Positions 19,130 through 20,266 of a DNA stretch of 26,677 nt are shown here, one piece after another. The position numbers and the translations under genes are program-made. This DNA comes from a virus: the IMG/VR virus record IMGVR_UViG_3300046515_000078, positions 1-26,677 of that record, one strand, 5' to 3'. The notes below the pieces were generated by a model. It saw only the letters and a list, made by a program, of their open reading frames with translations. It was not told the DNA's origin and did no database searches. Positions within the stretch are counted from its first letter, which is position 1. Each line of letters begins with the position of its first letter.

Positions 19130-19147
19130 GGGATAGCTCCTCACCTG
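19130..19147 (+). promoter_or_regulatory. 18-bp repeated intergenic element, copy 6
   Basis: GGGATAGCTCCTCACCTG, 1 nt after the primase-helicase stop and 83 nt before the methyltransferase start. A terminator-like hairpin (19167-19192) lies between the element and the gene. Confidence 0.75.
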
Positions 19148-19166
19148 ACCCTCATTGAAGCCACAC

Positions 19167-19230: not shown

Positions 19231-19725
19231 ATGCCAATTCTTGAATTGTGCGCGGGTTATGGCGGCCTGGGGGTCGCCGTTGAAGAACTGACCGGAGACA
19301 AGGTCACCGTAGTGGCCGAAGTCCACAAAGCAGCCTGCCAGGTGATGGCCTACCGCTTCCCCGACGCCCCGAATATCGGGGACATCCGCTTCCAGAACTG
19401 GACGCCGATGGTCGGAGAGGTCGACATCATCACGGCGGGGTTCCCGTGCCAGGACATCAGCAATGCCGGAAAGCGTGAGGGGATCAAGGGTGAGCGCTCC
19501 AGTGTCTGGTTCAACGTCGCCGAAGCAATCCGGGTCATTCGACCCCGACACGCGTTCCTGGAGAACGTCTCAGCTATCCGAAATCGGGGGCTCAGCGAAG
19601 TCGTCACCACGCTTCACGAGATCGGGTATGACGCGAAGTGGACGACTGTACGAGCTTCCGACTTCGGCGCTCCGCACCATCGAGACCGCTGGTTCTGCGT
19701 TGCCACACCTTCCGACTCCCACTGA
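19231..19725 (+). CDS. C5 cytosine DNA methyltransferase, catalytic part (motifs I-VIII)
   Basis: A 164-residue protein with ATG 19231 behind GAGGGACGG. It has motif I LELCAGYGGLG (SAM binding), motif IV TAGFPCQDIS with the catalytic Cys, motif VI ENV in AFLENVSAI, and motif VIII GAPHHRDRWF. It then stops at FCVATPSDSH, before the target recognition region and motifs IX-X, so it is about half of a usual enzyme. The missing motif X (RIGNGVVPQQA) is in the next gene, which overlaps this one by 236 nt in another frame. Codon use is atypical here (CGA, GTA, TCA, AAT, ATT), as expected where two proteins share DNA. The methyl mark should protect phage DNA from host restriction. The AT-richer 5' end suggests transfer. 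Confidence 0.85.
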   Translation: MPILELCAGYGGLGVAVEELTGDKVTVVAEVHKAACQVMAYRFPDAPNIGDIRFQNWTPMVGEVDIITAGFPCQDISNAGKREGIKGERSSVWFNVAEAIRVIRPRHAFLENVSAIRNRGLSEVVTTLHEIGYDAKWTTVRASDFGAPHHRDRWFCVATPSDSH

Positions 19726-20266
19726 GGCTGACTCCCGACGCGGTCCGGACTACGCGAAGAGGGACCGCCCCGGCGCCGGAGGTGACGACCTGGTTACCGC
19801 TGTCTGCCGACTCTTCCCCAGGGAGAAGGCGGAGAAGCTCTTCAAGACGCCGACTGCAAACCTGGGTAGCAACGGCTCCGCCCAGCACCCGGACAAGCGG
19901 AAGGCAGGCGGACACGGCCCGACGCTGGAGGACGAAGTCTGTTTCCTCCTGAACGTTGAGCCGGAGGCGGAGCACCCCGACGATGGGCCGCACTCCCCGG
20001 CGGAGTGGTGGGGCGACTTTGCAGCGGCCGTCTACCGCTGGGAGATCCTCCAGGGCACTGCCGCTCCGGTTCCCATCGTCCGTGGCCCACGTGGTGGCGT
20101 GAAGCTCTCTCCGAAGTTTGCGGAGTGGCTTATGGGCCTCCCGAACGGCTGGGTTACGGACGTACCCGGCCTGGACCACAAGGAACAGCTTGCCCGCATC
20201 GGCAACGGCGTCGTGCCGCAACAGGCGTACGAAGCCTTCCGGTTTCTCATGCAAGTCCCCGCGTAA
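19490..20266 (+). CDS. C5 methyltransferase C-terminal part (target recognition region and motifs IX-X), overprinted on the catalytic gene
   Basis: A 258-residue protein in the +1 frame relative to the catalytic gene. GTG 19490 is chosen because GAGGGG lies 7 nt upstream (19477-19482); ATG 19463 is an alternative without a clear ribosome binding site. The overlap encodes FDPDTRSWRTSQLSEIGG, RFTRSGMTRSGRLYELPT and LPTPTEAD, a pattern I recognise from actinophage and prophage proteins linked to C5 methyltransferases. The unique part includes WWGDFAAAVYRWEIL and ends KLSPKFAEWLMGLPNGWVTD and RIGNGVVPQQAYEAFRFL, which is motif X. The two proteins probably form a heterodimeric enzyme. A rarer +1 shift at the TGA of the first gene could instead fuse them. 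Confidence 0.75.
   Translation: MSAPVSGSTSPKQSGSFDPDTRSWRTSQLSEIGGSAKSSPRFTRSGMTRSGRLYELPTSALRTIETAGSALPHLPTPTEADSRRGPDYAKRDRPGAGGDDLVTAVCRLFPREKAEKLFKTPTANLGSNGSAQHPDKRKAGGHGPTLEDEVCFLLNVEPEAEHPDDGPHSPAEWWGDFAAAVYRWEILQGTAAPVPIVRGPRGGVKLSPKFAEWLMGLPNGWVTDVPGLDHKEQLARIGNGVVPQQAYEAFRFLMQVPA

Follow-up and report, generated by a model that had tools for sequence, protein, structure and literature searches.

A 26,677-base fragment of a phiC31/phiBT1-like Streptomyces phage, taken from a virus record and analyzed here as a whole (the window), carries two genes, alpha and beta, that overlap in different reading frames and very likely encode a single C5-cytosine DNA methyltransferase made of two polypeptides, with beta translated from a GTG codon inside alpha, an overprinted leader on beta, association of the two chains and methylation of the phage DNA. 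By computation we established how the pair is laid out, that this layout recurs, that both frames are constrained at the protein level, that the start of beta is conserved and that the two halves are colinear with a single-chain enzyme found in nature. From these we infer that beta is translated, that it forms a complex with alpha in which the leader has a tethering or clamping role, and that the complex is active and serves a purpose for the phage.

In the mechanism we propose, alpha, comprising motifs I-VIII with the S-adenosylmethionine (AdoMet) site, the catalytic PCQ and ENV, would be translated from the ATG at 19231, and beta from an internal ribosome-binding site and the GTG at 19490, within alpha and in the +1 frame. 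The first ~78 residues of beta would be overprinted on alpha motifs VI-VIII, with the remainder supplying the variable (target-recognition) region and motifs IX and X, and the two chains would associate into one heteromeric enzyme that methylates the phage DNA, probably for self-protection. Phage DNA methyltransferases usually serve to protect the phage's own DNA.

Two genes that probably share the parts of one enzyme

Alpha scored 135 bits against Pfam PF00145 (DNA_methylase; cut-off 22) and 111.5 bits against TIGR00675 (cut-off 100.65), aligned with M.HhaI residues 14-172, PCQ and ENV included, and was 75-89% identical to its counterparts in phiC31/phiBT1-like phages and prophages. It supplies the AdoMet-binding and catalytic half of a C5-cytosine DNA methyltransferase (PF00145 / dcm), and in near relatives its stop lies at most ~10 residues past motif VIII. 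This bears out a first-pass annotation, made from the sequence of the window, that had the catalytic gene stop right after motif VIII.

The second open reading frame (ORF) is open as far as 20266, and a longer version of it beginning at 19463 matched phrog_1008 ('DNA methyltransferase') at 4.7e-46; it holds motif IX-like GPRGGVKLSPKFAEWLMGLP and motif X-like QLARIGNGVVPQQA sequence. Searches of PDB and Pfam with beta gave no significant match. The variable region and motifs IX-X required of a C5-cytosine DNA methyltransferase are found in beta through phrog_1008 and through colinearity with the single-chain relative described below, and 3' of alpha's stop the beta frame is the coding frame (521 synonymous versus 230 nonsynonymous changes, with 537 of 751 at third positions). 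The 236-nucleotide (nt) +1 overlap from the GTG at 19490, with motif X in the second gene, was exactly as first annotated. The accompanying description of the enzyme's second half as overprinted on the first did not hold: the overprinted part is an extra leader of ~78 codons lying on alpha's motifs VI-VIII, and the variable region and motifs IX-X lie beyond alpha's stop.

Relatives were gathered from phage records, IMG/VR and GTDB genomes, and the split layout was found again in 68 distinct related loci, which excludes a sequencing error whose correction would restore one uninterrupted enzyme. Named carriers are phiBT1, RemusLoopin, Heather, Sebastisaurus, Euratis, Vash, Lilbooboo and Samora, alongside many viral contigs and prophages; the phage family that carries the split enzyme infects soil bacteria. 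The genes flanking the locus in the window encode a primase-helicase and a family A DNA polymerase, as they do in phiBT1 and RemusLoopin. The collection provided three natural controls, namely split relatives, relatives with motifs IX-X in alpha's frame (frame 0) and a true single-chain relative, L153.

L153 (2467-3687) is a natural single-chain enzyme that contains all of the alpha and beta parts save the overprinted leader, and in which the +1 signature and the start are lost. Its first half aligns with alpha and its second half with beta from LFKTPT on, at 51-61% identity. An AlphaFold model of L153, for which the split alpha and beta sequences served as alignment rows, had a predicted local distance difference test score (pLDDT) of 66, with the catalytic and motif IX-X parts mostly at about 75-95 and the variable region low, and matched M.HhaI 12-327 with Z 21.5 and a root-mean-square deviation of 3.0 over 232 residues. 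The colinearity of this single chain, together with the match of its model to M.HhaI, indicates that alpha and beta are two parts of one C5 methyltransferase. The leader of beta has no counterpart in L153 and is an extra part that goes with the split state; an economical guess is that it may help beta dock onto alpha during assembly.

Evidence for coding in the second frame

Conserved strings had been noted in both frames of the overlap. Those in alpha are genuine motifs, but the second-frame strings are largely their shadows: in the +1 frame FLENVSA reads out as SWRTSQL, GYDAKW as GMTRSG and RASDFGAPHHRDRWF as ELPTSALRTIETAGS, and single-chain enzymes from other phages (ShiLan, PFR1 and a Porphyromonas phage) contain the look-alikes SWRTSQ, GMTRSG and ELPTSA as well. 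Because they are read-outs of alpha motifs and are also seen in single-chain enzymes, these second-frame motifs are weak evidence for a gene. The open +1 frame is by itself unremarkable, since given the alpha protein and the codon usage of the window it would stay open over the overlap with a chance probability of 0.29. The reported breakdown of codon bias stands in part, as GC content at third codon positions falls to 0.69 in the overlap, but the bias of alpha is already weak 5' of it (0.78, with 0.87-0.90 in neighbouring genes). All of the quoted second-frame motifs, the chance openness of the frame and the ~32 nt overlap given in GenBank records are thus compatible with beta beginning near alpha's stop, at the TTG at 19700, and with an upstream second frame that is untranslated and conserved merely through alpha. 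As neither the motif strings nor the open frame is evidence for a second gene, we sought evidence that alpha alone could not yield.

In this +1 geometry the third codon position of alpha is the second position of beta, so that every silent alpha change in the overlap alters beta. The synonymous variability of alpha fell from ~0.45 upstream to 0.19 in codons 91-137, and its fourfold sites carried 5.4 changes per site before the overlap versus 2.5 in the core (codons 91-143; p = 5e-4). The ratio of changes silent in alpha only to changes silent in beta only was 218:23 before the overlap and 41:27 in the core (p = 4e-8), and alpha-silent, beta-altering changes occurred at 0.29 (near relatives) and 0.44 (mid relatives) of the upstream rate. 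We recounted with edge-disjoint sequence pairs picked by program. Among near relatives the counts went from 185:22 to 54:19 (p = 0.003, ratio 0.46), and among other split relatives, a set that still includes four near-group duplicates (L087, L088, L089 and L099), from 441:101 to 141:94 (p = 1e-9, ratio 0.51), whereas relatives with motifs IX-X in alpha's frame gave no fall (119:58 to 72:29, p = 0.5, ratio 0.96). The synonymous-site analysis proposed with the first-pass annotation thus returned alpha-silent rates of ~0.3-0.5 of upstream in split relatives, and the second frame proved to be constrained in related phages rather than unconserved.

Low silent-site variability alone cannot separate protein constraint from that imposed by an RNA or DNA element, such as a regulatory structure or a binding site. 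Changes silent in beta are not depressed, however, and go up per codon (23 in 84 codons before the overlap, 27 in 53 in the core), which indicates constraint at the protein level rather than on a nucleic-acid element. The accepted changes leave beta residues similar (L/V, Y/F), and the constraint tracks the split layout and not the sequence; we consider a nucleic-acid element highly improbable as the source of the silent-site conservation.

Second-frame similarity was judged against a null in which synonymous codons were permuted within each alpha. Split relatives exceeded this null with z mostly 2-9, and most Streptomyces relatives with z 3-9 (BLOSUM z 3-8), while in the control region, codons 5-85, z was mostly near zero with a few values of 2-3.5 among close relatives. 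L153 sat at the null: at 59% alpha identity its second frame was 31% identical versus 30% expected (z 0.3), compared with z of about 2-5 for loci that have a +1 ORF at similar alpha identity.

The start of beta is likewise conserved. Alpha Gly87 is encoded by GGT in 19 of 19 near relatives, thereby creating the GTG of beta, although 11 of 12 other mostly-glycine alpha columns vary among them; the exception, Gly132 (GGG in 19 of 19), encodes the conserved SGM of beta. Other groups have an ATG or TTG start at the corresponding position, 24-28 codons 5' of alpha's ENV. A beta start fell within a 5-codon window in all 68 distinct split loci versus 20.2 expected under synonymous reshuffling, an excess that is partly fitted and somewhat flattered because the window bounds were set after the start survey. 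The median anti-Shine-Dalgarno energy at these starts was -6.8 kcal/mol, and the single-chain L153 has no start codon at this position. Two other candidate starts were rejected: the upstream ATG at 19463 is not conserved, and the annotated TTG at 19700 is missing in many relatives (L004, L017-L021, L025 and L026).

Collectively, the constraint on alpha silent sites, which is gone in relatives with motifs IX-X in frame 0, the 68 of 68 starts with a Shine-Dalgarno sequence, the z of 0.3 in L153 and the absence of the annotated TTG from many relatives make a late beta start with an untranslated upstream frame very unlikely. Chance or a shadow of alpha as a full account, our first hypothesis, is rejected by the constraint, start-codon and permutation tests, all of which exceed chance in the direction of coding in both frames, as had been claimed at first pass. 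Programmed +1 ribosomal frameshifting near alpha's stop, which would fuse alpha and beta and leave the upstream overlap untranslated in the second frame, agrees with the +1 position of beta and with the existence of a single-chain relative. It predicts neither the upstream second-frame constraint nor the conserved start with a Shine-Dalgarno sequence, both of which were observed; the loci share no common slippery site or P-site codon, with the codons before alpha's TGA varying among CAC, GTC, AGC, ATC, CTC, AAG, CAG and AAC, and the only mention of DNA methylase genes in a paper on frameshift prediction is of genes joined by inteins (PMC10274946). We regard frameshifting as very unlikely.

Translation of beta from the internal GTG implies that existing records need correction. 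GenBank records of Streptomyces phages, L003 among them, annotate an overlap of ~32 nt with a beta start ~210 nt too late, and the annotation of phiBT1 (L004, NC_004664) omits beta. The label 'DNA methylase may be inactive' in the latter, together with the existence of a single-chain relative, would suit a decaying methyltransferase whose two halves are relics of one ancestral gene split by a frameshift. Purifying selection acts on both halves across relatives, the catalytic motifs are intact, and the start and Shine-Dalgarno sequence of beta are conserved, and so we give decay very little credence.

Besides the partly fitted start window, several observations weigh against a two-polypeptide enzyme with an overprinted leader. 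The phiBT1 record says of gp9.1 that it 'may be inactive', in an annotation that overlooked beta. An AlphaFold model of beta alone was poor (pLDDT 44) and does not inform the fold of the leader. The second-frame excess is modest in Mycobacterium and Gordonia phages (z about 1-4) and small in a few mid relatives such as L037 (z 1.1), and a Porphyromonas phage single-chain enzyme with no recognised beta reaches z 3.0. Conservation of the overlap deep beyond the Streptomyces phages is suggestive only.

Relatives with other layouts and the surrounding sequence

Motifs IX-X lie in alpha's frame in 13 relatives (L033, L039 and L154 among them). In L033, L034, L035, L038, L039, L043, L149, L150, L152 and L154, a single open gene carries motifs IX-X in alpha's frame and, in the +1 frame, sequence resembling a target-recognition region. 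Across six L033-type sequences, synonymous counts per frame were 33/123/40 of 212 in the variable region and 58/22/13 of 96 in motifs IX-X; the selected frame of the variable region is still +1, in an ORF with its own start and Shine-Dalgarno sequence. The L033-type +1 protein thus seems to hold the leader and the target-recognition region inside the catalytic gene. Within the frame-0 group, 12 of 13 loci have a start at the same place (3.6 expected); its overlap shows no detectable silent-site constraint, a finding at odds with this conserved start. More tentatively, the leader could be a protein module that arose when the conserved motifs VI-VIII of an ancient enzyme were overprinted and that was kept for making two polypeptides assemble, with the L033-type +1 protein nesting the whole target-recognition region in the catalytic gene, where both partners of the enzyme would be encoded by a single piece of DNA, and with overlap-encoded methyltransferases common yet misannotated in actinobacterial phages.

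Two further layouts were seen. In L082 (Polka14 gp74/gp75) the frame changes within the catalytic part, such that gp74 stops shortly past motif IV and the remainder of the enzyme is encoded by gp75 in a different frame. The Porphyromonas phage sequence L085 (1697-2434) encodes a very short C5 methyltransferase in which motif X follows motif VIII with hardly any variable region in between, and its +1 shadow resembles the actinophage leader.

Upstream of alpha lies one copy of an intergenic element, GGATAGNTCCTCACCTG, of which the window holds 7 copies on the + strand (9951, 11824, 13254, 13763, 16574, 19131 and 24001), a number reached in 0 of 100 shuffles. The copies are mostly immediately 5' of gene starts, and the element is absent from the related loci fetched; the family probably represents early promoters or operators specific to this phage. 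Coordinates of the locus are collected in Table 1.

Table 1. Features of the alpha-beta locus, in window coordinates.
Feature	Position	Strand	Basis or remark
Copy of the 7-copy intergenic repeat GGATAGNTCCTCACCTG; probably serves the alpha-beta operon as promoter or control element	19131..19149	+	~80 nt 5' of alpha
Alpha subunit gene, C5 DNA methyltransferase motifs I-VIII, 164 aa	19231..19725	+	Pfam PF00145, M.HhaI alignment
Alpha catalytic PCQ	19444-19452	+	
Shine-Dalgarno-like GAGGGG, 7 nt 5' of the beta GTG	19477..19482	+	sequence; anti-Shine-Dalgarno duplex -7.7 kcal/mol in the window
Beta subunit gene (overprinted leader, variable region, motifs IX and X), 258 aa, GTG start, +1 to alpha	19490..20266	+	phrog_1008, start survey, coding counts
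Dual-coding overlap, 236 nt, protein-level constraint on both frames in split relatives	19490..19725	+	rates of alpha-silent changes
Alpha ENV	19561-19569	+	
Beta variable / target-recognition region (LPTPTEAD..., FKTPTANLGSNGSAQHPDKRKAGGHGPTLEDEV)	19727..20083	+	colinear with the L153 variable region from LFKTPT on
Beta motif IX region (GPRGGVKLSPKFAEWLMGLPNGWVTD)	20084..20161	+	alignment with L153
Beta motif X (HKEQLARIGNGVVPQQAYEAF)	20177..20239	+	alignment with L153; conserved in a further alignment

Comparison with known split methyltransferases

The locus is a dual-coding case in which a catalytic core that is conserved universally is encoded in one frame, and part of the same enzyme's partner subunit in the second. 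It corrects the beta start in related phages, including phiBT1, whose record lacks the gene and labels the enzyme possibly inactive, and it shows how real overlap coding can be told from the +1 motif shadow that any conserved gene casts. It also offers a ready scaffold for a split methyltransferase, already divided by nature after motif VIII. Our literature search found no paper testing the coding role of this overlap.

Two-polypeptide C5 enzymes are already known, and the pair here adds an overprinted leader. In M.EcoHK31I the small-subunit gene lies in another frame of the large-subunit gene, and the likeness to it drawn at first pass stands for alternate-frame coding, while the distribution of motifs proves nearer to that of M.AquI. 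To our knowledge, a 236-nt dual-coding overlap with an overprinted leader has not been described for M.AquI. The large subunit of M.AquI carries motifs I-VIII and its small subunit the variable region with motifs IX-X, whereas the small subunit of M.EcoHK31I has motif IX only (PMC3404938). The window pair shares with M.AquI (CYCGRG) a large subunit with motifs I-VIII and a small one with IX-X, but M.AquI divides the variable region between its subunits, whereas here it lies wholly in beta and alpha ends at motif VIII. With M.EcoHK31I (YGGCCR; also M.EaeI) the common feature is that the small subunit is read from a different frame of the large-subunit gene, here only partly nested; the M.EcoHK31I large subunit has the target-recognition region and motif X and its small subunit only IX, whereas here beta holds the target-recognition region together with IX and X and reaches well beyond the end of alpha.

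Annotated actinobacteriophages such as RemusLoopin (gp34/35) and Phanphagia (gp65/66) have overlapping 'DNA methylase' genes whose products are of the same kind and belong to phrog_1008; the overlap given for Phanphagia is 250 nt, in contrast to the short overlaps of the Streptomyces phage records and the missing beta of phiBT1. The ShiLan domain is similar in that a second frame is coding inside an actinophage DNA methylase gene, but there the product is a hidden HNH endonuclease, a mobile homing insertion that has nothing to do with methyltransferase structure (PMC11855218), whereas here the second frame would encode the enzyme's own other subunit. In sum, the pair combines the motif distribution of M.AquI with M.EcoHK31I-like alternate-frame coding and an overprinted leader.
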